Shown here: positions 3,803 to 41,395 of the stretch, in pieces
Layout of the letters: the number at the start of each line of letters is the position of its first letter
Numbering within the stretch: position 1 is the stretch's first letter
Source of the DNA: Anaerococcus sp. Marseille-P3625
Lineage (GTDB): Bacteria; Bacillota; Clostridia; Tissierellales; Peptoniphilaceae
Direction of reading: 5' to 3'
DNA length: 64,000 nt
Assembly: GCF_900232825.1 (NCBI RefSeq)
Contig: NZ_OCTP01000009.1
Span: 1 to 64,000, forward strand
The notes under the pieces: generated by a model
Seen by the model: only the letters and a program-made list of their open reading frames with translations
Databases searched by the model: none
Told to the model about the DNA's origin: nothing
Program-made: the position numbers and the translations under genes

Positions 3803-3962
3803 AAGAGATTTAGATAATCCTTAGGGAAAGTACACTTATTTAAATCTTTTTTGAGCTAATTAATGATTATTATGGAACTAAAAGCTTAGGTTTTCCTAAA
3901 AAGTACACGCTTTTGGTTGTATTTGCTATGTGCAAATTTCCATAAGAATCATTAATTTTTTT
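3803..3962 (+). promoter_or_regulatory. Tandem structured 5' leader / attenuator of the corrinoid operon
   Basis: A candidate promoter (TTGACA 3768-3773, 17 bp, TAAGTT 3791-3796) would start transcription just before this element. Unit 1 is a stem at 3806-3812/3841-3847 followed by six T. Unit 2 is a 20-position stem at 3858-3877/3938-3957 with one mismatch, followed by seven T. Unit 2 encloses a stem 3880-3885/3909-3914, a hairpin 3886-3890/3895-3899 and a hairpin 3921-3926/3932-3937. Both units carry TTAGG and then AAAGTACAC in unpaired positions (about 3821-3835 and 3886-3908). Both hairpins look like intrinsic terminators, so this is probably a riboswitch-like or protein-controlled attenuator. 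It matches no class I can recall; B12-box elements are absent. Confidence 0.55.
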
Positions 3963-3996
3963 GTGGAAAAAACTTTTAAAGCTTGTGAGGAAAATT

Positions 3997-4776
3997 ATGA
4001 TTAGATCTTATAAGTGCGTGGATAATCCAAGTCGTGCCATAAATAAAGAAACTTATACAAATCCAAAGCTTATGGCAGAATTTGCCAAATCGGGCAGATA
4101 TATTTCACTTCCAATCATTCCCATAATTTCTGTTTGTTTGGGAGTCGAATTTGAAAATGGGATAAAAGCTGTCCCAATTTTTGAAAAAATTGAAGAAATT
4201 GATTTGCAAATGGATTATGAAAATCAAGCTTACAAAACTATGGTACAATCCTTGGAAATTCTAGATCCAGCAAAAACTGTAATAGAAATTAGAGGACCTT
4301 TGGCAACACTTGATAATTTTCTCGAACTTACAAAAGTTATGCGAGCTATGAAGAAAAAAAGAGAAATTTTAAATGATCTTTACGACAAACTTTCAGATAT
4401 TTACATAGATTTTATTAAAAAAATGCTTGAAAAAGATGTAAAAGTTTTTTCTTTTTCTGAAAGTATCCTTGATCCCAAAGTTTTGGGAGAAAAAGAAATT
4501 GCAAGATATGTAGACGATTTTTTGGAAAAATTTTTAAAAAAAGTTTTGCTATTGGGAAAAAATTACGAATTTACTTTTCACCTTTGCCCCAAATCAACTT
4601 TTGCCCTCATTGACTTAGATAAGGCTTATTTTGAAGAGATAAAATTTGAAAAACCTAAAAAATACATAGATATTTTGTTTAGCGAAAATTCCCTTATGGG
4701 CGATAGATGCATAAATTTAGCTGATAAAAGTTTTGATAAAGTAAACAAGATTAAAATAGGGAGGGAAAATGCCTAG
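3997..4776 (+). CDS. Short UroD/MtaA-like corrinoid methyltransferase-related protein
   Basis: First gene of the corrinoid operon. The ATG at 3997 is preferred because GTGAGG lies just upstream; a longer TTG frame from 3961 would run into the terminator-like leader. The 259-aa product is about 110 residues shorter than the two MtaA-like proteins downstream. It keeps an HLC motif (H195, C197) that aligns by eye with their zinc-ligand-like HIC motif. No signal peptide or membrane helix is visible. It overlaps the corrinoid protein by 8 bp, indicating translational coupling. I infer a divergent member of the uroporphyrinogen-decarboxylase-fold methyltransferases, but similarity is weak and it could be an accessory protein. 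Confidence 0.5.
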   Translation: MIRSYKCVDNPSRAINKETYTNPKLMAEFAKSGRYISLPIIPIISVCLGVEFENGIKAVPIFEKIEEIDLQMDYENQAYKTMVQSLEILDPAKTVIEIRGPLATLDNFLELTKVMRAMKKKREILNDLYDKLSDIYIDFIKKMLEKDVKVFSFSESILDPKVLGEKEIARYVDDFLEKFLKKVLLLGKNYEFTFHLCPKSTFALIDLDKAYFEEIKFEKPKKYIDILFSENSLMGDRCINLADKSFDKVNKIKIGRENA

Positions 4777-5416
4777 GAAAGAAGAATATTTTGATAAGAT
4801 GGCACAGATGGTTATAGATGAAGAAGATGAGGAAATTGCAGATCTTTGTAGGGCTTATCTAGCTGAAGGCTACGATCCAGAAGAGGCGATTTTTAAGGGG
4901 CTTATCAAAGGAATGAACGAGGTTGGCAAACTTTTTGAAGAAGAAGAATATTATATTTCAGATCTTCTAATTTGCTCTGATGCCATGTATAACGGTATCG
5001 ATGTTCTAACAGAAAAAATGGAAAGTCACCAAGAAAAAAATTTGGCGACAGCAGTTATTGGCGTTGTCGAGGGCGATACTCACGATATAGGTAAAAATTT
5101 AGTAAAACTTATGCTAGAAATAGCTGGTTTTAAGATGATAGATTTGGGAAAAGACGTTCCTTGCGAAAAATTTATAGATGAAGCCTTGGCAAATGATGCA
5201 AAATTTATAATGATGTCAACTCTTATGACGACAACCATGGAAAATATGAAAAAAGTTATAGATATGCTAAAAGAGCGAGGCCTTCGCGATAAATTTATTG
5301 TGATGATTGGAGGAGGCCCAGTTTCAGAAAGCTTTGCCCAAAAAATCGGAGCAGATGCCTATAGCGAAAATGCAACAGAAGCTGTAAAAGTAGCCAAAAG
5401 TTTTATTGGAAAATGA
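4769..5416 (+). CDS. Corrinoid (B12-binding) methyltransferase protein
   Basis: Corrinoid shuttle protein of 215 aa, of the MtaC/MtbC/MtvC type. An N-terminal helical cap (about 1-90) precedes a B12-binding Rossmann domain (about 91-215). The DTHDIG motif (103-108) supplies the lower-axial ligand His105. Family proteins carry a methyl group on cobalt between a substrate-specific methyltransferase and an acceptor methyltransferase. It overlaps the upstream gene by 8 bp and the RACE protein by 4 bp (ATGA), so the three are translationally coupled. The substrate is not readable from this protein. Confidence 0.93.
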   Translation: MPRKEEYFDKMAQMVIDEEDEEIADLCRAYLAEGYDPEEAIFKGLIKGMNEVGKLFEEEEYYISDLLICSDAMYNGIDVLTEKMESHQEKNLATAVIGVVEGDTHDIGKNLVKLMLEIAGFKMIDLGKDVPCEKFIDEALANDAKFIMMSTLMTTTMENMKKVIDMLKERGLRDKFIVMIGGGPVSESFAQKIGADAYSENATEAVKVAKSFIGK

Positions 5417-6984
5417 AAATAAAAATCGAAAATTTAGACACAGAATTTCAAGCAAGTGGAGAAGATGTCCTAAAAGATTTTTTGGAAAATTCTGTAAAGA
5501 TCAATAATTTTTGCAATGGCAAAGGAACTTGTGGCAAATGCAAGATAAAAATTTTATCTGGAATTGTAAATCCACCAAGCGAAAAAGAAAAATTGCTTTT
5601 AAGCAAAGAAGAAATTAAGGAAAATATCAGACTTGCCTGCCAAATTTCTCCGCAAACTGATATAAAAATAAGAAATTTTTACGAAAATTCAAAACTAGAA
5701 ATATTAGATGTTGGGGAAATTCCTGATTTTAAAAAAGATTATAGATCTGGCTATGGTTTTGCCATAGATATTGGAACTACGACAATTGCCGTTTATTTGG
5801 TAGATTTATCAACTGGTGAAATCGTGGGCAAAACTTCATCTATTAACCCTCAAAGCAAATACGGTCTTGATGTAATGACTAGAATTAGCTTTGAATATGA
5901 AAACTCCAAGGGAAAAGACCTATTAAAAGAAGTTTTAGTAAAAAGCTTAAACGAGCTTTTGCATAGACTCATAGAAGATTTTGAAATCGAAAAAAATTTT
6001 ATCAAAGAAATTATTGTAGCTGCCAACACTACTATGTTACACATGCTAGTAGGAGCTGATGCAAGAAAACTTGGGAGATTTCCCTATGAGGCGGAATTTT
6101 TACAAGGGCAAAAATTTTACGCAAGAGATTTGGCCATAGATTTTCCCGCAAATCTTTACACTTTGGCAAATGTTTCAGCTTTTATAGGCAGCGACATAGT
6201 AGCTGGAGTTTATCTTACAAAACTAAAAGAAAAGGAAAATACCTTATTTATAGATATTGGAACAAATGGTGAAATGGTTCTAAAAACTAGAAATAAATTG
6301 TATGCTTGCTCAACTGCAGCAGGGCCAGCCTTAGAGGCGATGAATATATCATCTGGTATGCGTGCAGAAAGAGGAGCTATTGAAGAAATAAAAATAGAAA
6401 AAGATCAAATAAGACTAAAAATTATAGGAGGTAAAAAAGCTAAGGGCATATGCGGAAGCGGCCTACTAAGCGCCGTAGCAGATGCGATTGAGAATAAATT
6501 AATTAACAAAAGAGGAAGGATAATAGATCCAAAAAACTTGGAAAATTCTGATTTTAGAAAAAACTATATCAGAGAAAATGAAAATGGTAAGAGATTTATA
6601 ATTTTAGATAAGGAAAATAAAATTTACCTAAGCCAAGATGATATAAGAGCAGTTCAACTTGCCAAAGGCGCGATTTTATCGGGATTTTTAACACTTTTAC
6701 AAATAGAAAAAGTTGAAATAGAGAACTTAAATTCTGTAATAATTGCTGGTGCTTTCGGCTCGCATCTAAAAAAATCTGACATAAGCAAAGTTGGAATTTT
6801 GCCAAAAGAAGTAGAAAATTTGATAACTTATGTGGGAAATTCGTCCCTAGTTGGGGCATATATGGCTCTTATGAATCCCCAAATAAAAAATGAAATGGAA
6901 GACTTGGCCAAGGAAATTTCCTATGTGGAACTTTCAACAAGCAAAGATTATGAAAAAACATTTGCAAGAGCTATGCAATTTTAG
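5413..6984 (+). CDS. RACE protein: ferredoxin-ASKHA reductive activator of corrinoid enzymes
   Basis: ATP-dependent reductive activator of corrinoid proteins, 523 aa. An N-terminal plant-type [2Fe-2S] domain has Cys34, Cys40, Cys43 and Cys76. A linker follows, then a C-terminal DUF4445/ASKHA ATPase domain with the phosphate-loop sequence DIGTTTIAVYL near residue 120 and a second one, DIGTNGEM, near 280. Family members (RamA, RACo, MtvA-type activators) return inactive Co(II) to Co(I). Its ATG overlaps the stop of the corrinoid protein, which is very likely its client. Length and domain order are typical. Confidence 0.93.
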   Translation: MKIKIENLDTEFQASGEDVLKDFLENSVKINNFCNGKGTCGKCKIKILSGIVNPPSEKEKLLLSKEEIKENIRLACQISPQTDIKIRNFYENSKLEILDVGEIPDFKKDYRSGYGFAIDIGTTTIAVYLVDLSTGEIVGKTSSINPQSKYGLDVMTRISFEYENSKGKDLLKEVLVKSLNELLHRLIEDFEIEKNFIKEIIVAANTTMLHMLVGADARKLGRFPYEAEFLQGQKFYARDLAIDFPANLYTLANVSAFIGSDIVAGVYLTKLKEKENTLFIDIGTNGEMVLKTRNKLYACSTAAGPALEAMNISSGMRAERGAIEEIKIEKDQIRLKIIGGKKAKGICGSGLLSAVADAIENKLINKRGRIIDPKNLENSDFRKNYIRENENGKRFIILDKENKIYLSQDDIRAVQLAKGAILSGFLTLLQIEKVEIENLNSVIIAGAFGSHLKKSDISKVGILPKEVENLITYVGNSSLVGAYMALMNPQIKNEMEDLAKEISYVELSTSKDYEKTFARAMQF

Positions 6985-6993
6985 GAGGAAAAT

Positions 6994-7407
6994 ATGAAAA
7001 AAATCAACAAATATCTATTAGCAATTTTAACAATCACAAGTCTAAGCCTAAGCGCTTGTAACAATCAAGCAAAAGAAGCGCCAAAAGAAGAAACAAAAGT
7101 AGAAGAAAAATCTGAAACTCCAGAAACTACAAGTGTAAAGATAACAATTTACGATAAGGTTAATGACAAAGAAATCCTAACAGAAGATGCAGAAATAGGA
7201 AAAGATGGTCTAGAAAAATACCTAGAAGAAAAACACCAAGCTAAATTTGAAAATGGAATGATGACAGAACTAGCAGGCATAAGCCAAGATAAGGATAAAA
7301 ACCAATACTGGATGTATTATGTAAACGACCAAATGGCAGAAGTTGGCATCGGCGATTATGAAGTCAAAGAAGGAGATAAAATAGAATTTAGATTTGAACA
7401 AATGTAG
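6994..7407 (+). CDS. DUF4430 lipoprotein (transcobalamin-C-like)
   Basis: Secreted lipoprotein of 137 aa. A signal peptide ends in the lipobox LSAC with Cys22, followed by a Glu/Lys/Pro-rich linker. The compact domain from about residue 48 has the DUF4430 hallmarks (YWMYYVNDQ, then GIGDYEV, then GDKIEFRFE). DUF4430 is the fold of the C-terminal domain of eukaryotic transcobalamin. AGGAGG lies 5 bases before the ATG. It sits between the corrinoid activator and an ECF S-component, and its stop abuts that gene's start. Capture of cobalamin at the cell surface is the natural inference, but ligand identity is not proven by sequence. Confidence 0.82.
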   Translation: MKKINKYLLAILTITSLSLSACNNQAKEAPKEETKVEEKSETPETTSVKITIYDKVNDKEILTEDAEIGKDGLEKYLEEKHQAKFENGMMTELAGISQDKDKNQYWMYYVNDQMAEVGIGDYEVKEGDKIEFRFEQM

Positions 7408-7920
7408 ATGGATACTAGAAAACTTACAAGACTTGCAAGTCTTATCGCCATTTGTGTGTTAAGTAGAATTAATTTTCAACTTATTCCCAATGTGCAAATT
7501 TTATCAGATATTATCCTAATTCTTGCCATTGATGGAAAGCTTGACGAAGCGATAATTGTAAATGCCATAACCATGACAGTGACAAGCTTTTATCTGGGCT
7601 TTGGTTATTGGGTGATTTTTCAAATTGTAGATTTTGCCATACTAAGCCTAATAAATTTTATAATTTTTAAAAAAATTAATAAAACTGATTTGACCAAGGC
7701 CCTAGCTCTTGGCGGATCAGGATTTATTTACGGGCTATTAATTACCTTAATGCAAGTTTTGATAATAGATGCAGGCAAAATTTCATTTATTGCCTTGTAT
7801 GTGGGTTCAATTCCCTTTGATATCAACCATATGCTGGGAAATATTGCCATTTATTTTATCCTAATCAAAAGATTGGAAGAATACATCACCGGCAAGAAAC
7901 ATTTTAGAAGTCTAACTTAG
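7408..7920 (+). CDS. ECF transporter S-component, probably for cobalamin/corrinoid
   Basis: Integral membrane protein of 170 aa with about five to six hydrophobic helices, the size of an ECF substrate-specificity subunit. The ATG begins immediately after the TAG of the DUF4430 lipoprotein, so the two are co-translated. S-components of this look next to DUF4430 lipoproteins are often annotated as cobalamin-type (CbrT-like). The energising EcfA/EcfA'/EcfT module is not in the window, which is normal for group II ECF systems. The corrinoid assignment rests on context. Confidence 0.7.
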   Translation: MDTRKLTRLASLIAICVLSRINFQLIPNVQILSDIILILAIDGKLDEAIIVNAITMTVTSFYLGFGYWVIFQIVDFAILSLINFIIFKKINKTDLTKALALGGSGFIYGLLITLMQVLIIDAGKISFIALYVGSIPFDINHMLGNIAIYFILIKRLEEYITGKKHFRSLT

Positions 7921-7928
7921 GAAGAAAA

Positions 7929-9041
7929 ATGAACAAAGAAGAACTGGAAAAAGAACTTAAAAAATACCCATCACAGATGAATTCACATGAGAGATTGAAG
8001 GCTTATCTAAGTGGACAAAGAGTCGATCATCTGCCCTACAATATAATGAGCTTGGATGTGGTTTATGGATATAATTTAGGCTATTCTATAAAAGAATTTT
8101 CAAATATCGACAGGCAAATTGAAGTTACCGACAAATTAGCAAATGAATATAAGATTTTTGGAATTTCTCAAGGCCTAAATCTTAGAACCATGGCCTACGC
8201 CCTTGGATCTACTGGGATTTTCCCAGAAAATGGAATAGATCGTGTCGATAAATATTTCCTAGATGAAAAGCTTGATGTAAATCTTTTGCAAATGCCAGAT
8301 CCTTACAAAAATAAGATTTTGGCAGAAAAATTAGCAAATGCAAGAAAATTAAGAGAAAAATTTCCCGACCATCCTATTAGAACTTTTCTTGCTGGACCAA
8401 TTTCCACGGCAGCAGCTCTTAGACCTTTAAGCAAATTACTAAGAGATTTAAGAAAAAATCCAGAAGAAGTGAAAAAATTATTGGAATTTTGCCTAGAAGC
8501 AAATATGAAATGGGCAGAAGTTTTTTATAAGGAATTTGGACCAGGAAAAATTATGATTGCAGATCCAGTAGCTTGCGATGATATTTTATCTCCCAAACAA
8601 GCCAAGGAATTTTCATATCCATATTTAAAAGCTTTGACAAGTGGACTTAGAAAACTTAATGGCATAAAGCCAGACCTACATATTTGTGGCCACACCAAAA
8701 GGCAGTGGGAAGATTTAAAAGATTTTGATATAGAATTTTTTAGCGTGGATAATTGCCATGATTTAGAGGAATGCAAAATTGCCATAGAAGACAAATTAGG
8801 CTTAATGGGCAATCTTCCACCAGTTGATATTATGAAAAATGGGACCATTGATGATGTAATTGATGCTGTTAAAGCTTGTATAAAAAAGGGAGCGGATGCA
8901 AAAAATGGATACATACTTGCAACAGGCTGTGGGACTCCAGCAGAAACTCCCAAGGAAAATGTCGATGCCTTTGTCTATGCAGTAAGAAAATATAGCAAAG
9001 ATGCAAGAATTAATGAAATACCAAAAGCTCTTTATCAATAA
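7929..9041 (+). CDS. UroD-family (MtaA/CmuA-type) methyltransferase, copy 1
   Basis: Soluble 370-aa protein of the uroporphyrinogen-decarboxylase superfamily branch used in corrinoid methyl transfer. Zinc ligands are expected at His251 and Cys253 (HICGHT) and Cys334 (ATGCGTP). These match the H-x-C...C thiol-activating set of MtaA/MtbA rather than the catalytic residues of true UroD. AGGAAG precedes the ATG. No haem biosynthesis genes lie near, and a corrinoid protein and activator lie upstream. It is closely related to the next gene and the two have identical length. It may move a methyl group between the corrinoid and a thiol or selenol, or demethylate the substrate. Confidence 0.85.
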   Translation: MNKEELEKELKKYPSQMNSHERLKAYLSGQRVDHLPYNIMSLDVVYGYNLGYSIKEFSNIDRQIEVTDKLANEYKIFGISQGLNLRTMAYALGSTGIFPENGIDRVDKYFLDEKLDVNLLQMPDPYKNKILAEKLANARKLREKFPDHPIRTFLAGPISTAAALRPLSKLLRDLRKNPEEVKKLLEFCLEANMKWAEVFYKEFGPGKIMIADPVACDDILSPKQAKEFSYPYLKALTSGLRKLNGIKPDLHICGHTKRQWEDLKDFDIEFFSVDNCHDLEECKIAIEDKLGLMGNLPPVDIMKNGTIDDVIDAVKACIKKGADAKNGYILATGCGTPAETPKENVDAFVYAVRKYSKDARINEIPKALYQ

Positions 9042-9086
9042 TGATAATTTAAGCTTTTTGTATAAATACTTATGAAAGGAGGATTG

Positions 9087-10199
9087 ATGGATAAAGAAGA
9101 ACTAAAAATAGAAATGGAAAATTATAGGCCAAAGATTAGTTCGGGTGAAAGGATTTCCGCCTATCTAAATGGTCAGGTGGTGGATCATCTTCCCTTTGCA
9201 ATAATGTCCACCAATAGGATAATTGCAAATTGTCTTTCTTATAGCATTAGCCAATTGGAAGATGTCGATGTCCTAACTGATATTGTAAAATACAAATACG
9301 ATCACTACAAAATAGTTGGACTAACAGAGGAGCTTTCTCTTAGAACTATGGGCCAAGCTGTAGGATCAAAGCTTGTTTTTCCAGAAAATGACATAGATTA
9401 TATAGAAAAATTTGTCATGGAAGATCAGCTTAATATGAATCTAATAAAAATGCCAGATCCCTATAGCAACGAAGTTTTGCTTGCAAAGCTAAAAAGAGGA
9501 AAAATCATGAAAGATAGATTTCCTGATATGGTAATTGAAACTGAAATCCCAGGGCCAATTACAACGGCAGCAGCCATTAGACCAGTGGATAAACTTCTTA
9601 GAGATCTTAAGAAAAATCCTGATGGAGTAAAAAAACTTTTAGATTTTTGCTATGAGGCTAACTTATCTTGGGCAAAAGCTTTCAAAAAGGAATTTGGACC
9701 GACAAGCGTAATGGTGGTTGACCCAGTAGCTTGCGATGATATTTTATCGCCAAAACAAGCTTTGGAATTTTCCCTACCTTATCTAAAAAAACAACTAAGT
9801 GCCTACTATGAACTAAATGGAATCAAGCCAAATTTACACATTTGTGGCCATACCAACAGACAATGGAAATATTATAAAGATTTTGATATAGATTTTTTCA
9901 GTGTCGATAATTGTGAGGACTTAGAAGCTTGCAAAAAAGCAATCGAGGATAAGCTTATAGTTGTGGGAAATGTTGCACCAGTAGAAGTGATGCGCTATGG
10001 AAGTATTGATGATGTAATAGAAGCTGTAAAAACTTGCATAAAAAAAGCAGCAGATGCCAAAAGTGGCTATATAGCAGCTACAGGCTGTGGCTCACCAGTA
10101 GGAACGCCAATAGAAAATTTAAATGCTTTTATCTACGCAATCAATAAATATGGCAATAATGCCAAAATCGGTCAAATGCCAGAAGCTATTAAAAGCTAG
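9087..10199 (+). CDS. UroD-family (MtaA/CmuA-type) methyltransferase, copy 2
   Basis: Tandem paralogue of the preceding gene. A longer frame begins at 9072, but AGGAGG lies inside that extension. Starting at the ATG at 9087 gives 370 aa, which aligns end to end with copy 1 and places His251 and Cys253 at the same numbers. The C-terminal Cys of ATGCGSP is also kept. The copies share long blocks such as DPVACDDILSPKQA but differ over much of the first 120 residues. This fits one protein binding the methyl donor and the other the acceptor. It is separated from copy 1 by 45 bp and belongs to the same operon. Confidence 0.85.
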   Translation: MDKEELKIEMENYRPKISSGERISAYLNGQVVDHLPFAIMSTNRIIANCLSYSISQLEDVDVLTDIVKYKYDHYKIVGLTEELSLRTMGQAVGSKLVFPENDIDYIEKFVMEDQLNMNLIKMPDPYSNEVLLAKLKRGKIMKDRFPDMVIETEIPGPITTAAAIRPVDKLLRDLKKNPDGVKKLLDFCYEANLSWAKAFKKEFGPTSVMVVDPVACDDILSPKQALEFSLPYLKKQLSAYYELNGIKPNLHICGHTNRQWKYYKDFDIDFFSVDNCEDLEACKKAIEDKLIVVGNVAPVEVMRYGSIDDVIEAVKTCIKKAADAKSGYIAATGCGSPVGTPIENLNAFIYAINKYGNNAKIGQMPEAIKS

Positions 10200-10211
10200 A
10201 GAGGATAAAAA

Positions 10212-11582
10212 ATGGAAACTTATAAAAACACTAAAGCTAATGCCTATGCCTTGATACCCTTATTAGTCTTTGTAATAATTTATTTTGTAACAGGAATTAT
10301 TTTGCAAATTCAAGGCGTGGAAAATGCTTTTTATCAAATGCCAGCACCAGTTGCAGCTTTTGTCGCTGTAATAGTTGCCTTTATACTTTTTAAAGATGAC
10401 TTAAATTCGAAATTTTCTATATTTATAGCAGGCTGTGGCGATGAAAATATCATAACTATGTGCCTAATTTACTTACTTGCAGGAGCTTTTTCTACAGTTG
10501 CTCAAGCAAGCGGTGGTAGGGATGCAGTAGTTAATCTTGGTCTTAGATTTGTCCCGGCCAATCTTATAATTGCAGGAATTTTTATAATAGCAGCTTTTAT
10601 GTCAACAGCAACTGGTACATCAGTAGGAACCATCTCAGCTCTTACAACAGTTACAATAGGCCTTGCCCAAGGAGCTGGTCTAAATCTTGCTATGAGCCTT
10701 GCAGCCTTAGTGTCTGGTTCAATGTTTGGAGATAACTTATCCATTATTTCCGATACGACCATAGCTGCAACAAAGACTCAAAATGTAGATATGAAAGATA
10801 AATTTAACCTAAACCTAAAAATCGCACTGCCAGCAGCTATCATTACTTTGGTATTATTTATAGCTTTTGGTAGACCAGAAACTGTAATTCCAATAGAAAC
10901 AAGCCAAATAGAAATAGTAAAAGTATTGCCATATTTACTTGTCTTGGTAACAGCCCTTATTGGAATCAACGTATTTGTAGTTTTGACCAGTGGAATAATT
11001 TTTGCAAGCGTAATTATGCTTTTCCAAAATTCCTTTGATTATATAGGTCTATCAAAACTTATCTATGAAGGTTTTACATCAATGACAGAGATTTTTATCT
11101 TGTCAATGCTTATTGGTGGACTCTCCTACATGGTTAATAAAGAAGGTGGACTTGATTTTATAAACAAAAAAGTTTTGGGCTTTGTAAAAGGAAGAAAATC
11201 TGCGGAAATTGGAATTTGCCTAATAGTATTTTTGATGGATATAGCTGTAGCCAACAACACCGTAGCCATTGTAATTGCAGGACCTATAGCCAAGAAATTA
11301 TCAAAAGATTATAAGGTTGACCCAAGAAGATCGGCCTCACTTTTGGATATTTTCTCTTGCGTTGGTCAAGGACTTATCCCTTATGGAATTCAGCTTCTAA
11401 TAGCAGCAAAAATTACCCAAGGACTCCTTGCACCAGTTGACATAATGCCATTTCTATTTTACCAGTACCTACTAGCAGCTTTTGCAATCTTATCAATATT
11501 TGTAGATTTTGCAAAAACTAAAGATAAGTGGAATTTTGAAAAAGACATGCCAGAAAGTGCAATTTTAAAAGAAAATTTATAA
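10212..11582 (+). CDS. NhaC-family antiporter/transporter
   Basis: Integral membrane protein of 456 aa with about 11-12 hydrophobic helices. The GDNLSIISDTTI signature (173-184) is characteristic of the NhaC superfamily, which includes Na+/H+ antiporters and substrate/cation antiporters such as malate/lactate MleN. A GAGAGG site precedes the ATG. Its place between the methyltransferases and YedE suggests it could bring in the methylated substrate, or export a product, by cation exchange rather than serve general Na+ homeostasis. That functional reading is inference. Confidence 0.82.
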   Translation: METYKNTKANAYALIPLLVFVIIYFVTGIILQIQGVENAFYQMPAPVAAFVAVIVAFILFKDDLNSKFSIFIAGCGDENIITMCLIYLLAGAFSTVAQASGGRDAVVNLGLRFVPANLIIAGIFIIAAFMSTATGTSVGTISALTTVTIGLAQGAGLNLAMSLAALVSGSMFGDNLSIISDTTIAATKTQNVDMKDKFNLNLKIALPAAIITLVLFIAFGRPETVIPIETSQIEIVKVLPYLLVLVTALIGINVFVVLTSGIIFASVIMLFQNSFDYIGLSKLIYEGFTSMTEIFILSMLIGGLSYMVNKEGGLDFINKKVLGFVKGRKSAEIGICLIVFLMDIAVANNTVAIVIAGPIAKKLSKDYKVDPRRSASLLDIFSCVGQGLIPYGIQLLIAAKITQGLLAPVDIMPFLFYQYLLAAFAILSIFVDFAKTKDKWNFEKDMPESAILKENL

Positions 11583-11601
11583 AAAATAATCGGAGGATTT
11601 T

Positions 11602-12663
11602 ATGGAAATTAATAAAAATCGTAAAACAATAAACCTAATAGCAGGTTTGATAATCGGTGCCATAGCCGCATTTTTGGTAAAAAATGGCAACCCTGGTAAC
11701 ATGGGTTTTTGCCTTGCTTGTTTCTGGAGAGATATAGCAGGAGCAATCGGCCTTCACTCAGCAGCAAAAGTTTCATACATTAGACCAGAAATTATAGGCT
11801 TTATATTAGGAGCTTGTATAATGGCTAATATCAGAGGAGAATTCAAATCTAAGGGAGGATCTGCTCCAATTTTAAGATTTACTCTTGGATTTACCTCAAT
11901 GATAGGAGCTTTGATGTTTTTAGGTTGCCCACTTAGACTAATACTTAGACTTGCAGGTGGAGATGCCAATGCAATTGTCGGCTTATTAGGTTTTATTTGT
12001 GGTATAGCAATCGGCGTATATTTCCTAAAAAAAGGATTTTCTCTAGGACGTGCTCATGATCAAAGCAAAATTGCCGGATATTTTATGCCAGCATTTATGG
12101 TTTTATTATTAGTATTTTTGCTAGTAAAACCAGAATTTATAGTATTTGCAACAGAAGGACCAGGATCTAAACATGCTCCAATTATAATGTCAATAATAGC
12201 AGGATTAATCGTTGGATCCTTATTCCAAAGAACAAGACTTTGTACAGCAGGAGCATTTAGAGATATAATTTTAGTAAAAGATAATACCTTATTTATGGGA
12301 GCTCTTGGAATTTTCATCGGTGCTTTAGTAATGAACCTAGTATTTGGCCAATTTAAATTTGGCTTTGCTGAACAACCAGTAGCTCACAGCAATCACTTGT
12401 GGAATTTCCTAGGAACACTATTGATGGGATTCTCATCAGTATTAATGGGTGGTTGCCCAATTAGACAAACAGTATTATCAGGTCAAGGCGATAACGATGC
12501 AGCAATTACAGTAATAGGATTAATCATAGGGGCTGCATTTGCTCACAACTTTGGACTAGCATCAAGCCCAGAAGGTCCAACAGTTAATGGAATGATAGCA
12601 GTAGCAATTTGTTTTGTAATAAACTTACTAATAGCAAGTATGTCAAAAAGGAGTAATGCATGA
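11602..12663 (+). CDS. yedE: YedE family selenium/sulfur transporter
   Basis: Membrane protein of 353 aa of the YeeE/YedE family. The repeated cysteine signatures are visible: MGFCLAC (Cys37, Cys40), FLGCPLR (Cys109), RTRLCTAGAFRD in the middle, and MGGCPIRQ near residue 290. In characterised YeeE relatives such cysteines relay thiosulfate across the membrane. The YedE branch is linked by genome context to selenium use. The stop overlaps the start of a TusA-like gene (ATGA), the same arrangement as thiosulfate transporter plus TusA-like protein elsewhere. The cargo could be a selenium or a sulfur species. Confidence 0.88.
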   Translation: MEINKNRKTINLIAGLIIGAIAAFLVKNGNPGNMGFCLACFWRDIAGAIGLHSAAKVSYIRPEIIGFILGACIMANIRGEFKSKGGSAPILRFTLGFTSMIGALMFLGCPLRLILRLAGGDANAIVGLLGFICGIAIGVYFLKKGFSLGRAHDQSKIAGYFMPAFMVLLLVFLLVKPEFIVFATEGPGSKHAPIIMSIIAGLIVGSLFQRTRLCTAGAFRDIILVKDNTLFMGALGIFIGALVMNLVFGQFKFGFAEQPVAHSNHLWNFLGTLLMGFSSVLMGGCPIRQTVLSGQGDNDAAITVIGLIIGAAFAHNFGLASSPEGPTVNGMIAVAICFVINLLIASMSKRSNA

Positions 12664-12866
12664 AAGAAGTAGATACAAGAGGATTAAGCTGTCCAGAACC
12701 AATAATGTTAACCCAAGAAGCAACCCTAACAGGCGAAAACAATATCGAGGTTTTAGTAGATACAGAAGTAGCCAAAGAAAATGTAATAAGATTTCTAGAA
12801 AATGCTGGTTACAAAACTAGTGTAAATGAAGAAAAAGATTATTACAAAGTTATTGGAAATAAATAA
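12660..12866 (+). CDS. TusA/SirA-like sulfur (selenium) carrier protein
   Basis: Small soluble protein of 68 aa with the TusA-family motif GLSCPEP; Cys11 is the expected persulfide/perselenide carrier. It overlaps yedE by 4 bp. Size and motif match single-domain TusA. Next to a YeeE/YedE transporter it probably receives the chalcogen on the cytoplasmic side. The N-terminal domain of YedF at 39408 is a second TusA-like protein in this window. A terminator follows 10 bp downstream, closing the operon. Confidence 0.9.
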   Translation: MKEVDTRGLSCPEPIMLTQEATLTGENNIEVLVDTEVAKENVIRFLENAGYKTSVNEEKDYYKVIGNK

Positions 12867-12876
12867 TAAATGAGCT

Positions 12877-12912
12877 AAAAAGGTCTTTGTAAATTTTTGC
12901 AAGGATCTTTTT
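12877..12912 (+). terminator. Intrinsic terminator of the corrinoid/yedE operon
   Basis: A 13-bp stem with two G-T wobbles (12877-12889/12900-12912) ends in a run of five T. It lies directly after the tusA-like gene. Confidence 0.85.
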
Positions 12913-12970
12913 AAATAAAATTATCCAAAAAATAAAATTTGTGTTAATATATAAGGGTAAATAAGATTAT

Positions 12971-13046
12971 TGGGATATAGCCAAGTTGGTAAGGCACCAG
13001 ATTCTGACTCTGGAGATCGTAGGTTCGAGTCCTACTATCCCAGCCA
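12971..13046 (+). tRNA. tRNA-Gln (anticodon CTG), CCA encoded
   Basis: Complete cloverleaf. The acceptor stem TGGGATA pairs with TATCCCA, and the D arm is GCC/GGC. The anticodon stem CCAGA/TCTGG has loop TTCTGAC, giving anticodon CTG. The T arm has the GGTTCGAGTCC loop sequence. G73 and a genomic CCA follow. The U1-A72 pair is characteristic of glutamine tRNA. Confidence 0.95.
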
Positions 13047-13130
13047 AAATATTTTAATTATAAGGGAAAATCGTATGCGACAAAGCTAATCAAAGTTATA
13101 ATTTATGTGTCAATTGTAAAATTATGCTGT

Positions 13131-13206
13131 ATTACGATAGCCAAGTTGCTAAGGCATAAGATTCTGCGTCTTACGATCGTAGGTTTGCGTCCTACTATCC
13201 CAGCCA
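13131..13206 (+). pseudogene. Decayed tRNA-Gln copy
   Basis: A second tRNA-like sequence lies 84 bp after the intact tRNA-Gln. The 3' side of the acceptor stem and CCA (TATCCCA G CCA) are identical to the intact gene. The 5' side has become ATTACGA, so only one acceptor pair can form. The conserved GG of the D loop and the TTCGA of the T loop are also lost (GC and TTTGC). The CTG anticodon is retained, and the anticodon stem is still fully paired (TAAGA/TCTTA). It is very unlikely to be a functional tRNA. Confidence 0.85.
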
Positions 13207-36853: not shown

Positions 36854-36887
36854 AATTCCTCCTATAATAATTTTGCAAAATGGTAAT

Positions 36888-37003
36888 AAAAAAGACTTCT
36901 GACGAATTCGCCAAAAGTCTTGCCACCGTATAAGGGTTTATTCAACCGGAAATAAATTCGTTCTGACGATTAAATAATTGGGCTACTCCCTTTCTGCTAG
37001 GAT
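36888..37003 (-). promoter_or_regulatory. yybP-ykoY manganese riboswitch with terminator
   Basis: On the minus strand the leader reads AAAGGGAGTAGCCC (complement of 36980-36993), then paired arms, then GGCAAGACTTTTGGC. The GGGAGTAG and GCAAGAC blocks are the conserved ligand-binding loops of the yybP-ykoY class, which senses Mn2+. The GCAAGACTTTT strand also forms the 5' arm of a 14-bp terminator (36893-36920) ending in six U (36888-36893). Aptamer and terminator are therefore mutually exclusive. Metal binding should allow read-through into the P-type ATPase. The 200 bases to its right, up to 37211, hold only AT-rich sequence and a small hairpin (AAGCAT/ATGCTT near 37145-37160). Confidence 0.9.
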
Positions 37004-37211
37004 TATTATATAGTAAATTTTTGAAATCTCAATAAGAAAATGAATTTTATTTATTTTTCAGATAAAACATTAACAATAAATTGACAATCAAAGCCTTTGT
37101 CGTTTAGTGGATATATAAATTAAATTTTTCATTTTTCTTACAAAAGCATGGAAAATGCTTGTTTTATACTTGTTTTATAAATGTAGATTTAAATTTTGAA
37201 AGGAGAAATTA

Positions 37212-38363
37212 TTGACAGAACTTGTAAAAGATTTGCCCGAGATATTTGATGATTTTGCCGAAGCAAGGCAAAATGCGTTCTTGTCTGTAAAAGAATTAAA
37301 AGATAAGGGAATTCCACTAGTTGGTCACTATTGCACCTATTTTCCAGCAGAAGTTGCTTGGGCGGCAGGAGCTTCTACCGTTGCACTTTGCTCAACAAGC
37401 GATGAAACCATAGAAGAAGCAGAAAGAGATTTGCCAACAAATCTTTGCCCACTTATAAAATCTTCCTATGGTTTTGCCAAGACAAACAAGTGTCCTTTCT
37501 TTTATTTTTCTGATGTAGTTGTAGGCGAAACTACTTGTGATGGTAAGAAAAAAATGTATGAGTTAATGAATGACATTAAGCCAGTTTATATCATGCACTT
37601 GCCACAAACACAAAATGCCAGAGCCTTACAATATTGGAAAGATGAAGTTATAGACTTTAGAAAATATTTGGAAGGTAAATTTAATACTGAAATAACTGAT
37701 GAAAATCTTAGATATTGGGCAAAAATTGGCAATGATATAAGAGATGCACAAAAAAATCTTGCCGATACTATGGAACTTGAACCAGCGCCAATGAGTGGCT
37801 TAGACTTTTTCCATGTAACCTATGGATCAACTTTCAAAATGGACAAAAAAGCTATTGCCGATGAGATTAATGCCATAGCAAAAAAAGTTCGCGATGAATA
37901 CGATCCATCAACTAGAGAAAAAAAGCCAAGAATTATAGTAACTGGTTGCCCAATGGGCGGAGCTACAGAAAAAGTTATCAATGCTATTGAAAATAATGGT
38001 GGAGTTGTAGTTTCTTTTGAAAACTGCTCTGGAGAGAAAAATTTTGACAACAATATCGACCTTGAAGCAGAAGATATCAACGAAGCTATAGCAAGCAGAT
38101 ACCTTGACATTGGTTGTTCTGTTATGACACCTGATACTAATAGACTAAAACTTTTAAGCAAACTCATTGATAAATACAAGGCTGATGGAGTTTTGGAAAT
38201 GGACTTGGTTTCTTGCCATCCATATATAGTAGAAAGAGAAACAATCAAAAGATTTGTTACAGAAGAAAAAGGCATACCTTATATGTTTGTTGAAACAGAC
38301 TTTTCAAAATCTGATATAGGTCAACTAAACACGAGGATTGCTGCCTTTATAGAAATGTTATAA
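37212..38363 (+). CDS. Double-cubane-cluster anaerobic reductase (HgdB/BcrB-like)
   Basis: Protein of 383 aa of the 2-hydroxyacyl-CoA dehydratase beta-subunit family. TTG at 37212 is the start, with AAAGGAGA five bases upstream. Candidate cluster cysteines lie in GHYCTYFPAEV, NLCPLIKSSYG, NKCPFF and GETTCDGKKKMYE in the first half, and TGCPMGG, FENCSG, IGCSVM and VSCHPY in the second. Single-gene members of this type carry a double-cubane [8Fe-9S] cluster and do low-potential reductions of small molecules. It is 9 bp from selD, a pairing seen in selenium-using clostridia, so a role in reducing a selenium species is possible but unproven. Confidence 0.87.
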   Translation: MTELVKDLPEIFDDFAEARQNAFLSVKELKDKGIPLVGHYCTYFPAEVAWAAGASTVALCSTSDETIEEAERDLPTNLCPLIKSSYGFAKTNKCPFFYFSDVVVGETTCDGKKKMYELMNDIKPVYIMHLPQTQNARALQYWKDEVIDFRKYLEGKFNTEITDENLRYWAKIGNDIRDAQKNLADTMELEPAPMSGLDFFHVTYGSTFKMDKKAIADEINAIAKKVRDEYDPSTREKKPRIIVTGCPMGGATEKVINAIENNGGVVVSFENCSGEKNFDNNIDLEAEDINEAIASRYLDIGCSVMTPDTNRLKLLSKLIDKYKADGVLEMDLVSCHPYIVERETIKRFVTEEKGIPYMFVETDFSKSDIGQLNTRIAAFIEML

Positions 38364-38372
38364 GGAAAATTT

Positions 38373-39386
38373 ATGAGTCAATTAAATGTATGTGGCGGCT
38401 GCAATGCAAAAATTGCCGCAGGAAATTTGGACAAATTATTAGAAGATATCACTCCTTACAAACGTGATGATATAGTTGTAGGCTTTGACAAAAAAGATGA
38501 CGCAGCAGTAATCGACATTGATGGCAAAACTGGAATAATCGAAACCTTAGACTTTTTCCCACCAATGGTAAATGATCCATATTTATTTGGTCAAATTGCA
38601 GCAGCAAATTCAATGAGCGATGTTTACGCTATGGGTGGCGAAGTAATTTGTGCCCTAAACATTACAACTTTCCCATTAGAAGATGATTTTGATATCCTAA
38701 GAGAAATTCTTAGAGGTGGAAATGATAAGGTAACAGAAGCTAAAGCAAGCCTTACAGGTGGTCATTCAATCCACGATCATGTAACCAAATACGGTTTGTC
38801 CGTTACTGGCAAGGTTGCTTTGGATAAAATTTGGAAAAACAACACTCCACACGATAAAGATGTGCTTTTATTAACCAAAAAACTTGGAACAGGTCTTATA
38901 ACAGGATCCTACAACCAGGGTCTTGTAACAGAAGAAAATTTCAAAGCTTGTACAGATCAAATGAAAACTTTAAACAAATACGCTAGAGATATTTTTGTAA
39001 ATTATGATATCCACGCAGCAACAGATGTAACTGGCTTTGGACTTTTAGGCCACTTATCAGAAATGGCTGGAGATGATTTTACAATTATCGTTGATAGCAA
39101 AAAAGTTCCAATCCTTGATCAAGCCCTAGAACTTGCGGGAGAATTTTTATACACTTCTGGTGGTCAAAATAACAGAAATTATCTTGGAGGACGTGTAGAA
39201 TTTTACGAAGATAATTTTGCCCTAAGCGAAGTTTTGTTTGACCCACAAACCTCAGGTGGATTATTAGTTTCCGTTGATAGAGAAACAGCCGATCAAATAA
39301 AAAATGATTTTAAAAGAGAAAAAATGGATATATATGAAATAGGGGAAGTAAAATCCAAAAGATTTTATCCAATTATTGTAAGGTAA
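38373..39386 (+). CDS. selD: Selenophosphate synthetase
   Basis: Protein of 337 aa. The N-terminal catalytic motif is GGCNAKI: Cys10 aligns with the essential Cys17 of E. coli SelD, and the second Cys of the E. coli motif is Ala here. The downstream AIR-synthase fold is intact (MSDVYAMGG, LTGGHSIHD, AATDVTGFGLLGH, PQTSGGLLVSV). It makes selenophosphate from selenide and ATP for Sec-tRNA or tRNA selenouridine. No in-frame UGA is used at the active site. It begins the core of a selenium cluster; selA, selB and selC are not in the window. Confidence 0.95.
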   Translation: MSQLNVCGGCNAKIAAGNLDKLLEDITPYKRDDIVVGFDKKDDAAVIDIDGKTGIIETLDFFPPMVNDPYLFGQIAAANSMSDVYAMGGEVICALNITTFPLEDDFDILREILRGGNDKVTEAKASLTGGHSIHDHVTKYGLSVTGKVALDKIWKNNTPHDKDVLLLTKKLGTGLITGSYNQGLVTEENFKACTDQMKTLNKYARDIFVNYDIHAATDVTGFGLLGHLSEMAGDDFTIIVDSKKVPILDQALELAGEFLYTSGGQNNRNYLGGRVEFYEDNFALSEVLFDPQTSGGLLVSVDRETADQIKNDFKREKMDIYEIGEVKSKRFYPIIVR

Positions 39387-39407
39387 AAAAATTTAAAGGA
39401 GAAAAAA

Positions 39408-40016
39408 ATGAAAGAAATTGATGTATTAGGTAAAGCTTGTCCAATCCCAGTTATTGAAACAAAAAAGGCTTTTAGAGAAAATCCAGATGAGAAAGAATTT
39501 GAAGTTTTAGTTGATAACGAAGTTGCAACCGAAAACTTATCAAAAATGGCAAAAGAATTAAAAATAGATGTTAAAGTAGAAAAACTTGAAGATAGAAAAT
39601 ACAAAGTATCTTTAGAAAAAACAAAAGATTCCCTAGACCATAGCCAAATCGAAAGCTATAGCGTAAATGATGCTACAAGCAGCAACTACATTGTAATTGT
39701 AAGCTCTGATAAAATGGCTGATGGAGATCCAGAATTTTCCAAATCTTTACTAGAAGGCTTTATCTATGCCCTAACCGAACAAGACCATCTTCCAGTTGCT
39801 ATGTACTTCTACAATAGAGGAGTATTTATGACAACAGAAAATGAAAAATCTATTGAAGATCTTAAAGGCCTTGAAGCTAGGGGAGTAAGAATTTATTCTT
39901 GCGGACTTTGCCTACAAAATTATGGCAAAAAAGAAGAGCTAAAAGTTGGCGAAATCACCAATATGTACAAAATTGTAGAAGCAATGAGATCTAATCATGC
40001 CATCTACCCTTGCTAA
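39408..40016 (+). CDS. yedF: Selenium metabolism protein YedF (TusA-DsrE fusion)
   Basis: Protein of 202 aa. The N-terminal TusA-like domain (1-70) has GKACPIPV with Cys11. A DsrE/DsrF-like C-terminal domain (about 88-202) has the motif SCGLCLQNYG near residue 165. This two-domain form is the selenium-associated YedF, always near selD. AAGGAGA precedes the ATG. The likely job is carriage of selenium as perselenide to SelD or to the neighbouring PLP enzyme. Confidence 0.93.
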   Translation: MKEIDVLGKACPIPVIETKKAFRENPDEKEFEVLVDNEVATENLSKMAKELKIDVKVEKLEDRKYKVSLEKTKDSLDHSQIESYSVNDATSSNYIVIVSSDKMADGDPEFSKSLLEGFIYALTEQDHLPVAMYFYNRGVFMTTENEKSIEDLKGLEARGVRIYSCGLCLQNYGKKEELKVGEITNMYKIVEAMRSNHAIYPC

Positions 40017-40272
40017 TAATATAGAATATTTTCTATTTTCTTTTCACAACATTTCTGAAGCCTTGGCAGCTTTAAGCAAAGTTGAACATTTAAAAGGATC
40101 AAGACTTATTCCATTGCCAACAGAAATTGGTACAGGTTGTGGCTATTGCTTGCGAGTAGATAAAGATTTTATCGATGAGGCTATGGAAATTCTAACAAAA
40201 GATGATTATGAGAATTCCTACAGCTTAGGTCATGATGGCAAAAAAAGGGAGATAAAAGAATATGTATTTTGA
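39997..40272 (+). CDS. DUF3343 protein of the selenium cluster
   Basis: Protein of 91 aa. It overlaps yedF by 20 bp and the PLP enzyme gene by 11 bp. An N-terminal strand-rich half with FSFHNISEALAA is followed by the IPLPTEIGTGCGYCLRV block, in which the CGYC pair is conserved in DUF3343. The family is typical of selenium and sulfur-carrier clusters in clostridia; a chalcogen-transfer role is inferred from the CXXC and context. Confidence 0.88.
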   Translation: MPSTLANNIEYFLFSFHNISEALAALSKVEHLKGSRLIPLPTEIGTGCGYCLRVDKDFIDEAMEILTKDDYENSYSLGHDGKKREIKEYVF

Positions 40273-41395
40273 TAATTCGGCGACAACTCTTCACAAACCA
40301 GATGCCTTAAAAGAAAAATTCATAGAATTGCTAAATACCAACGATTTGGGCAACCCTTCAAGAAGCGGCCACATTAAAAGCCAAAACTCCATGATGGGAA
40401 TTTTCCAAACTAAGAAAGACTTGGCAAAACTTTTTCATATAGCAAATCCTAATGATATTGCCCTTACTGAAAATGCAAGTTTTGGCCTAAATTTTGTAAT
40501 CAAATCTTTGGTAAAAGAAAATGACCATGTAATAACTACAACAACAGAGCATAACTCAGTTCTAAGACCGCTTTATCAAAGCGGGGCAGAACTTAGTTTT
40601 ATAGATTTTGATGAAAAGTGCAATGTAGATTTTGACAAAATCCCAGAGCTTATTAGAGAAAACACTAAATTTATCATAACAAATCAAGCCTCAAATCTTT
40701 TGGGCAATGTAAATGATTTGGATAAAATTCACGCTTATGCAAAAAAATATAAGCTCATAATGATAATAGACATTGCTCAAACTGCAGGTTGTTTGGATCT
40801 TGATATTTCAAAATATCCTAATTCCATCTTTGTATTTACTGGCCATAAGTCACTTTATGGACCATCAGGAACAGGTGGAATTATAAAAAATGGCGATTTT
40901 GATTTTTCTAATGTATTTTCTGGTGGATCTGGAGTTAATTCCTTTGACAAAAATCATCCGCTAGATTTTCCGGCAGTTTTTGAAGTTGGAACGAGCAATT
41001 TCATATCACAAATTGCCATGGATGCCAGCATAAAATTTATCTTAGATGAGGGAATTGACAAAATTCACCAACATCTAAAAGAAATCACCAAAAGATTTTA
41101 TGATGGCATAAAAGATATAGAAGGAATAAAAATTTATTCCAAAAAACCAGAGGGTGAATATTCTCCGATAGTTTCAATCAACTTAAAGGATATGGAATCA
41201 TCAGAGCTTGCCCTAATTTTGGATGAAAAATACGACATTCAAACAAGACCTGGAGCTCATTGTGCGCCATTAATTCACGAACATTTTGCAACTGAGGCTC
41301 AAGGAATAGTAAGATTTTCCTTTTCATACTTTAATACTGATGAAGAAATTGACAAGGCTATTGAAGTACTTAGAGAAATAGCTAAAGAATATTAA
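40262..41395 (+). CDS. Class V aminotransferase: cysteine desulfurase/selenocysteine lyase-like
   Basis: PLP enzyme of 377 aa. Lys196 in GHKSLYGPSG is the Schiff-base lysine, and Cys334 in RPGAHCAPL is the catalytic cysteine that would accept S or Se. The ATTTEHNSVLRPL block and FVFTGHK are typical of the SufS-like branch. It overlaps the DUF3343 gene and ends the selenium operon. Mobilising selenium from selenocysteine, or sulfur/selenium from cysteine, for SelD and YedF is the natural role; substrate preference is not readable. Confidence 0.9.
   Translation: MYFDNSATTLHKPDALKEKFIELLNTNDLGNPSRSGHIKSQNSMMGIFQTKKDLAKLFHIANPNDIALTENASFGLNFVIKSLVKENDHVITTTTEHNSVLRPLYQSGAELSFIDFDEKCNVDFDKIPELIRENTKFIITNQASNLLGNVNDLDKIHAYAKKYKLIMIIDIAQTAGCLDLDISKYPNSIFVFTGHKSLYGPSGTGGIIKNGDFDFSNVFSGGSGVNSFDKNHPLDFPAVFEVGTSNFISQIAMDASIKFILDEGIDKIHQHLKEITKRFYDGIKDIEGIKIYSKKPEGEYSPIVSINLKDMESSELALILDEKYDIQTRPGAHCAPLIHEHFATEAQGIVRFSFSYFNTDEEIDKAIEVLREIAKEY

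Follow-up and report, generated by a model that had tools for sequence, protein, structure and literature searches.

The first 64,000 nucleotides of contig NZ_OCTP01000009.1 of Anaerococcus sp. Marseille-P3625, the stretch that we call the window, carry an operon for corrinoid-dependent methyl transfer, ten plus-strand genes at 3997..12866, behind a structured RNA leader at about 3804-3963 (Table 1). The ten genes are all present at the coordinates first given to them, and the gaps of only -8 to +30 bases between neighbours make a single transcription unit likely; the initial annotation placed the start too late, omitting the leader. Nine of the ten products match Pfam or NCBIfam families (URO-D three times, B12-binding, a RACo/AcsV-like activase, DUF4430, the NhaC superfamily, seleno_YedE and TusA), and the product of 7408-7920 matches none in either database. 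Of the B12 methyl-transfer kit proposed for the locus, the corrinoid protein, the activase RACE and three UroD proteins stand, and the B12 uptake role would fall to this unmatched ECF-like membrane protein and the DUF4430 lipoprotein, which occur together at 8 of 36 cluster loci compared (tblastn). We consider it probable that the operon is a system for methyl-selenium salvage by demethylation, governed by a tandem structured RNA leader. The operon type has been described before; what is new is the tandem RNA element.

Table 1. Features of the window, with the evidence for each
Feature	Coordinates	Strand	Basis
Tandem RNA element, domain 1: closing stem P1, hairpin P2, unpaired AAGUACAC, core AGTACAC 3829-3835	3804..3849	+	covariance model (CM) R2, 38.5 bits at 3810-3843 (training row)
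Tandem RNA element, domain 2: architecture of domain 1, core AGTACAC 3902-3908	3872..3922	+	CM R2, 49.3 bits at 3878-3916 (training row)
Long outer stem around domain 2, then 7-T run (3956-3962); candidate terminator-like expression platform	3858..3963	+	fold
Mlp1, short UroD-family methyltransferase, 259 aa, HxC...C	3997..4776	+	Pfam, alignment, tree
Corrinoid protein (methyl carrier)	4769..5416	+	Pfam, NCBIfam
RACE/RACo-type reductive activase, 2Fe-2S domain	5413..6984	+	Pfam, NCBIfam
DUF4430 lipoprotein, possibly cobamide-binding (putative role)	6994..7407	+	Pfam
Membrane protein, ECF S-component-like, possible cobamide uptake (putative role)	7408..7920	+	no Pfam/NCBIfam match
Mlp2a, MtaA-like Zn methyltransferase, His-x-Cys...Cys	7929..9041	+	Pfam, NCBIfam, alignment, tree
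Mlp2b, Mlp2a paralog, His-x-Cys...Cys	9072..10199	+	Pfam, NCBIfam, alignment, tree
NhaC-superfamily transporter	10212..11582	+	Pfam, NCBIfam
YedE, putative selenium transporter	11602..12663	+	TIGR04112, 505 bits (cut-off 200)
TusA-like carrier, YedE partner	12660..12866	+	Pfam, NCBIfam
Terminator-like hairpin with T-run 3' of TusA	12876..12913	+	fold z -5.8
Selenium-use operon: double-cubane protein DCCP, SelD, YedF, cysteine desulfurase/Sec-lyase-like	37212..41395	+	profile matches

A tandem leader RNA at selenium loci

Two copies of AAAGTACAC lie in the 250 bases before the operon, and the window holds no third. Each AGUACAC sits 3' of a small hairpin, and a longer stem closes around hairpin and core. 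The 7-T run that follows the outer stem recurs in all four leaders of the methyltransferase (mlp) operons, and a consensus terminator scan did not report this stem in the window; locus L143 has a hairpin with T8, and at L099, L100 and L142 no clear platform is discernible. Fold z-scores are -4.9 for the window leader, -4.0 for L005, -3.2 for L072 and -2.1 for the yedE leader of L074, and a promoter scan of the leader did no better than chance (2 found, 2.6 expected).

Three second domains were used to build a covariance model (R1), which returned among its top matches the first domains and domains at other loci, with weaker false matches below, and its matches up to E 1 make up the 14-row alignment of model R2. 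In this alignment, which was itself fitted to the structure, 98% of pair cells hold standard pairs, where slid partners reach 35-64%. Both sides have changed in 9 of 13 pairs, a count that 25 of 500 shuffles attain, and double-change cells number 41 where shuffling gives 11.3 +- 2.6, with none of 500 shuffles as high. RNAalifold run on a plain MAFFT alignment of four mlp leaders recovered domain 2 and the outer stem; double changes were limited to 3 of 32 pairs, and the covariation term, at +1.25, gave no net support. Conserved structure with compensatory changes is found for the domains and is weak for the outer stem.

No family of Rfam 15 matches the element at gathering thresholds, and a known riboswitch as the identity of the leader was rejected for lack of any match above threshold; in E-value mode the window leader drew 4 matches, the best of them (E 0.06, 16.6 bits, threshold 48) to an animal long non-coding RNA family, and we take these as chance. 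Neither in Rfam nor in the literature, covered in part and including two riboswitch reviews in which no word starting with "selen" occurs, did we find a selenium-sensing RNA. The guanidine-II (mini-ykkC) riboswitch offers a likeness, being made of two small tandem domains with a self-complementary stretch in their unpaired cores: the Anaerococcus element likewise has two tandem domains, and the self-complementary stretch of its core is GUAC. It differs in its core, in a hairpin with a 3' internal loop, and in the genes that it accompanies.

R2 was searched against 76 loci (1.46 Mb). All 17 matches at E < 0.5 lie within tandem elements, comprising the 14 training rows and three new matches (L143, L142, L099) that sit at the expected partner positions; two further partner domains appeared at E 3.5, two matches, in L006 at E 1.8 and in L144 at E 4.6, appear fortuitous, and 33 further small loci gave no match. 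R2 recovered 19 of 20 domains, missing the first domain of L072. The bare motif AGTACAC occurs at 94 sites in all sequence examined (overlapping loci counted), and its same-strand pairs no more than 110 bases apart, 12 in number and 10 distinct, are every one a tandem element, with a spacing of 57-79.

As is looked for in a cis-regulatory RNA, the 10 elements stand at several unlinked, functionally related loci. They precede the mlp operon in the window genome (G000) and in G020, G021 and G031; the activase-DCCP-SelD-YedF operon in G016, G020 and G031; and, in G021, a desulfurase-Se/S-carrier (PF11823)-activase-DCCP-SelD operon, an Opp/Nik-like ABC transporter operon, and yedE-tusA, which in that genome stands alone. 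At the selenium loci examined, the element is present in 5/5 SelA-positive and 0/6 SelA-negative Anaerococcus, the latter count covering 6 of the 26 SelA-negative genomes among the 31 of the genus. Loci L074, L099 and L100 had been chosen before the motif was noticed, and L142-L147 were added afterwards as a test, in which the two loci from SelA-positive genomes were positive and the four from SelA-negative genomes negative. R2 found no tandem element at the examined loci of other genera.

Three side observations belong here. The ABC transporter operon of G021 (L074:11300-16490, Opp4A/NikA-like) lies beside yedE-tusA and has an element nearly identical to that of yedE; its transporter is a candidate importer of selenium compounds. 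In L003, L004 and L006, all SelA-negative, the mlp leader holds by eye a terminator-like hairpin and no AGTACAC domains, and another leader type may have replaced them. The SelD operon of the window has no initial activase gene such as is present in G016, G020 and G031, and the sequence before it (36850-37212) looks by eye like a decayed leader.

Its sequence and setting make this tandem AGUACAC element a candidate for a selenium-responsive RNA regulator. A bolder proposal, to which we give somewhat less than even credence, is that the element belongs to a cis-regulatory RNA class of its own, perhaps a riboswitch of two domains with interacting GUAC cores. It would report selenium status directly (through selenide, selenophosphate or some methylated form) and would control a regulon of mlp, yedE-tusA, the Opp/Nik-like ABC transporter and DCCP-SelD-YedF. 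A contact between the domains would be possible because the core holds the self-complementary GUAC. Since domain 2 of the mlp leaders is nested in the terminator-like stem, its stabilisation would favour termination, and expression would be off at ample selenium if domain 2 is what is stabilised. In the yedE leader of G021 the first core can pair with a GTGTACT further downstream, pointing to an alternative fold there, so that control might run in either direction.

An mlp-type gene set without Mlp3

The initial annotation knew of no described system of this form. Such systems are in fact the mlp gene clusters (Kountz & Balskus 2023, PMC10418091), which encode corrinoid S/Se-methyltransferases and for which a role in recycling methylated selenium has been proposed, and SdmABC of Methanococcus voltae, whose sdmC (an Mlp2) is required for dimethylselenide use according to the sections of that paper that treat it; ClMlp2, moreover, methylates selenide from methylcobalamin (PMC10418091). 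The demethylation of methyl-selenium or methyl-sulfur compounds first suggested for the operon holds up as its best reading, and it is a described kind of chemistry. In the window the three Mlps, the corrinoid protein (CorP) and RACE are all on the plus strand and no more than 2 kb apart (RACE to Mlp2a spans 944 bases, with two genes between), and no folate methyltransferase lies within 20 kb, the contig starting 4 kb upstream and PF00809 being absent genome-wide. His-Cys-Cys zinc ligands are present in the Mlps at motif level. A type 1 cluster encodes both Mlp2 and Mlp3, and here there is no Mlp3; the operon is, as far as its sequence tells, a variant of the published kind that falls outside strict type 1 membership.

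With type 1 clusters (PMC10418091) it shares the multiple MtaA-like Mlps, the corrinoid protein, RACE, the zinc motif, the lack of a folate methyltransferase and an anaerobic host with selenium traits, and a double-cubane protein adjoins the cluster in some relatives. It differs in that Mlp3 is found in neither cluster nor genome, Mlp2 is duplicated, and DUF4430/ECF, NhaC and yedE-tusA lie within the operon; the main text of PMC10418091 mentions neither TusA, YeeE, NhaC nor Anaerococcus (version 4), nor yedE (version 3). SdmABC, in those sections of the source that describe it for M. voltae and M. maripaludis, resembles the operon in having one corrinoid protein and two closely related Mlp2-type methyltransferases, and differs in being archaeal with coenzyme M as the proposed acceptor, the Anaerococcus operon adding Mlp1 and RACE. 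We also observed the double-cubane protein within the mlp clusters of three genomes of genus g5 and of G314 (L080, L081, L098, L119), the g5 clusters also carrying an NhaC carrier.

Cluster loci were compared in 36 genomes, 16 of the family (the window counted) and 20 from 391 genomes drawn from the class, where the cluster label means a corrinoid protein of at least 204 bits, cut at a gap that we chose. Some class-level loci are incomplete (G346 is without RACE or Mlp3, G383 without RACE or Mlp2), those of G413, G098, G185 and G430 are on short contigs, where a missing neighbour is weak evidence, and G063, on a 4 kb contig, was left out of the positives. The two-gene corrinoid/UroD loci of G044-G046, G076 and G096, whose corrinoid protein reaches 39-43%, were not counted as mlp clusters; that of the window is 47-63% identical to mlp-type corrinoid proteins outside the genus. 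Four close named matches of Mlp2b, at 77-81% identity, come from what are by coordinates A. vaginalis (G035), A. obesiensis (G036), A. octavius (G020) and A. ihuae (G011).

A FastTree tree of 103 rows (102 UroD ORFs and MtaA of M. mazei, leaving out three UroD ORFs above 420 aa and the near-identical named loci L004-L006) places Mlp2a and Mlp2b of the window in a clade of 54 rows (support 0.994) and the short Mlp1 in one of 23 (support 1.0); a third group of 25 rows is not a clade of its own, and MtaA falls between the full-length clade and the other two groups. If full-length is taken as Mlp2, short as Mlp1 and third as Mlp3, the topology would be that of PMC10418091. These labels follow from tree, gene order and zinc motif, not from C. 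ljungdahlii sequences, and at locus L105 the order Mlp1-Mlp2-CorP-Mlp3-RACE is that reported for C. ljungdahlii. For the five Anaerococcus genomes that the tree includes, the two Mlp2 copies fall into two ortholog groups, and all 15 aligned Anaerococcus copies keep the His-x-Cys...Cys motif. The short third UroD protein noticed at the outset is real and is no fragment: a pseudogene was ruled out by a length class of about 259-303 aa and by three Cys that are invariant in 23/23 aligned sequences, the window's among them. An HxC is followed about 40 residues on by a second Cys, with both Cys in 23/23 and the His in 19/23, including the window; departures from His-Cys-Cys are confined to several Mlp1 in the published set too (PMC10418091).

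Mlp1 and a pair of Mlp2 genes are retained in all seven Anaerococcus clusters, and Mlp3 in none. An Mlp3 query against the window genome, an assembly of 11 contigs and 99.89% completeness, matched only the window's own Mlp2 and Mlp1 (20-26%), and against the six other cluster-bearing Anaerococcus gave nothing above 28%, while Mlp3 was found at 43-100% in the five other genomes searched, one of them the query's own. PF00809, the family of folate methyltransferases, MetH and FolP, is absent from 7/7 Anaerococcus cluster genomes and present in 13/14 controls. The methyl group therefore cannot reach folate by enzymes of this family, and the folate route was rejected on that ground. With PF00809 and Mlp3 both missing, the acceptor is likely to be a thiol, and the second Mlp2 the enzyme that methylates it. 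A MetE-like PF01717 protein was considered as acceptor enzyme and left open, being present in the window genome and absent from three Anaerococcus cluster genomes and from G007; the copy in question is a 396-aa MetE C-terminal-like protein (G000:C1:784390-785517) in a genome without PF00809/MetH.

The yedE-tusA pair and selenium use

Conservation of the gene order and co-occurrence with selD had been set as checks on the proposal, and the routine absence of yedE/tusA from orthologous corrinoid operons as grounds against it. The absence is what we find: yedE-tusA adjoins the mlp cluster in 1/36 genomes, the window's, and is wanting at 35/36, including 6/7 Anaerococcus clusters, so that a conserved yedE/tusA tail is refuted. 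As to co-occurrence with selD, SelD is above cut-off in 22/31 genomes of the genus, in 7/7 with a cluster and 15/24 others (p 0.08), and within the family in 15/16 against 71/114 (p 0.01); these and the following p values carry no correction for kinship, and cluster status in the family was assigned by inspection. SelA, found in 5/31 genomes of the genus, is present in 4/7 with the cluster and 1/24 without (p 0.005).

TusA accompanies YedE in 13/13 large yedE loci outside the window (tblastn; small yedE loci excluded), a cysteine desulfurase lies beside the free-standing pair in 6 of these 13, and pairing of YedE with SirA-like proteins is described in the portions of Lin et al. (2015, PMC5322559) that deal with it. 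The YedE-SirA/TusA-Sec lyase neighbourhood portrayed there resembles ours in that a TIGR04112 YedE adjoins a TusA/SirA-like protein in SelD genomes, and differs in that the window's pair shares an operon with an mlp cluster. yedE and the cluster tend to share a genome, though they adjoin only in the window: yedE is above cut-off in 2/31 genus genomes, both cluster-bearing (p 0.045), in 8/16 cluster genomes of the family against 24/114 others (p 0.025), and in 8/23 of the class against 29/368 (p 0.0005). G314 has yedE 35 kb from its mlp cluster. As a separate observation, G072 (L087) and G096 (L089/L090) each have a solitary Mlp2-like gene, at a distance from the yedE-tusA pair of about 14 and about 20 kb, respectively. 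The NhaC gene is found in 4/7 Anaerococcus clusters, and was rejected as a cluster-specific gene: it is enriched (11/23 against 36/368 genomes at E 1e-60) yet adjoins the cluster in just 4/23.

The selenium reading survives the missing tail because the lone yedE-tusA of G021 shares its leader element with the mlp operon, and because yedE, tusA/D and an sdm-like operon are co-induced in M. maripaludis: upon selenium depletion, the portions of PMC11097638 concerned give log2 changes of +5.3 for yedE, +4.5 to 4.6 for TusA/D and +5.6 to 7.8 for the sdm-like operon. This co-induction would agree, by analogy, with the shared control seen in Anaerococcus. The pair may thus be tied to the methyltransferase operon by co-regulation, not adjacency, through the candidate RNA regulator.

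That SelD and YedF nearby could use the selenium was soundly anticipated. SelD is in the window, in an operon whose double-cubane protein scores 498 bits (cut-off 350), and elsewhere in the genome selA, selB and tRNA-Sec adjoin a glycine reductase operon (GrdA, GrdB, a SECIS_4 element and a glycine riboswitch). By its gene complement the organism makes selenocysteine, so it can use freed selenium. Selenouridine was rejected as the use, MnmH being above cut-off in 0/31 genus genomes. Orphan SelD, in genomes with neither SelA nor MnmH above cut-off, accounts for 17/22 SelD-positive genomes of the genus, and in many relatives outside it selD has an in-frame TGA, probably marking a selenocysteine-containing SelD.

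Methyl-selenium salvage and its alternatives

From what could be computed directly (gene content, zinc motifs, the absence of Mlp3 and PF00809, the Sec machinery, RNA structure with covariation, and an element common to selenium operons) we infer the substrates, direction, acceptor, transport roles and RNA ligand of a possible pathway. Consider a cell presented with a methylated selenium compound, such as methylselenol, dimethylselenide or a Se-methyl amino acid, perhaps carried in by the NhaC/MetT-like carrier. The compound would bind the His-Cys-Cys zinc of an Mlp through its selenium, and the methyl group would pass to Co(I) of the corrinoid protein, with RACE keeping the cobalt reduced and DUF4430/ECF uptake supplying the cobamide. 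A second Mlp would transfer the methyl to a thiol; given the lack of both Mlp3 and PF00809 folate methyltransferases, this is most likely the other copy of Mlp2. The freed selenide would then pass by way of TusA/YedF to SelD and on into the selenocysteine of glycine reductase. The leader RNA, with two AGUACAC domains and a terminator-like stem, would tune expression to selenium status, and in relatives the same control would extend to yedE-tusA, the SelD operon and the ABC transporter.

We believe methyl-selenium to be the best-supported reading and a likely one, mainly through the selenium traits of the genomes and the shared leader element. Several points weigh against it, in addition to the fitted alignment and the plain alignment described above. 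The substrate may be a methyl-sulfur compound, and ClMlp2 may act slowly on sulfide too. Three of the seven Anaerococcus cluster genomes have SelD but neither SelA nor MnmH, and G007, a cluster genome of another genus, has no SelD above cut-off. The window's own SelD operon has no tandem element upstream, and deletion of yedE in M. maripaludis produced no clear transport defect in the experiments covered by those portions of PMC11097638.

The same chemistry might act on methylthiols or methionine-derived thioethers, with the selenium genes present for other reasons. The zinc motif suits S as well as Se, the methionine transporter MetT belongs to the NhaC superfamily (PMC3228920 and PMC2940859, in their treatment of that transporter), and the SelA-less cluster genomes and G007 just mentioned fit such an assignment. 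The minor non-selenium branch of mlp clusters, however, lies in organisms without selenium traits (PMC10418091), yet SelD accompanies the cluster in every Anaerococcus genome that has one, and the leader element is common to mlp, the SelD operon and yedE-tusA; we regard methyl-sulfur metabolism as decidedly unlikely. Very improbable, in our judgement, is the use of a methyl donor for C1 or energy metabolism, in which methoxy, methylamine or betaine demethylation feeds folate: the corrinoid protein and RACE do resemble those of such systems, but the seven genomes are without PF00809 methyltransferases, the only substrate methyltransferases among the ten proteins are of the UroD type, and these have the zinc motif of the thiol type and surround the thiol methyltransferase MtaA in the tree.

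Two further alternatives concern parts of the methyl-selenium reading. Instead of being a ligand switch, the leader RNA may bind a protein or the selenocysteine apparatus (SelB with Sec-tRNA, say) and so give feedback control. Its restriction to SelA-positive Anaerococcus at the loci examined would be explained, but a branch of low support (64/77) in the SelD+YedF tree has all five element genomes on one side, and the correlation may be one evolutionary event. Bacterial SECIS elements typically have an apical loop and bulge, whereas the conserved part here is the internal AGUACAC, and searching selA/selB of these five genomes with the model turned up no element; we think a protein site somewhat unlikely. 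As for the tail, yedE-tusA could be a passenger inserted behind the cluster with no functional tie, as its adjacency in a single genome and its free-standing occurrence elsewhere, in 6/13 loci beside a cysteine desulfurase, would lead one to suppose. The pair of G021 bears the same RNA element, however, yedE and the cluster co-occur in class and family, and the archaeal yedE is induced together with the sdm-like operon; we consider a mere passenger unlikely.

The surroundings of the operon deserve brief mention. The window begins within a 5S gene (1-84), two ABC-transporter ORFs separate it from the mlp operon, and a 5S rRNA gene also lies about 1 kb upstream of the mlp operon in A. octavius (L005 3612-3728) and G031 (L075 15317-15433). 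Downstream are an intact tRNA-Gln (12971-13046), the sole copy called by ARAGORN, and by eye a degenerate tRNA-Gln-like second copy (13128-13206). A single ORF of 4690 aa at 41706-55778 has a signal-like start, then repeated domains and, at the C terminus, a membrane anchor; by eye it looks like a very large surface protein.

An operon of this kind is a means by which a strict anaerobe could win back selenium lost in methylated form, and the sharing of the element lends weight to a tie between YedE/TusA and selenium that has long been suspected. It further points to new candidates for selenium genes, among them the ABC transporter beside yedE in G021, and the shared leader RNA provides a direct, testable handle on how bacteria sense their selenium supply.

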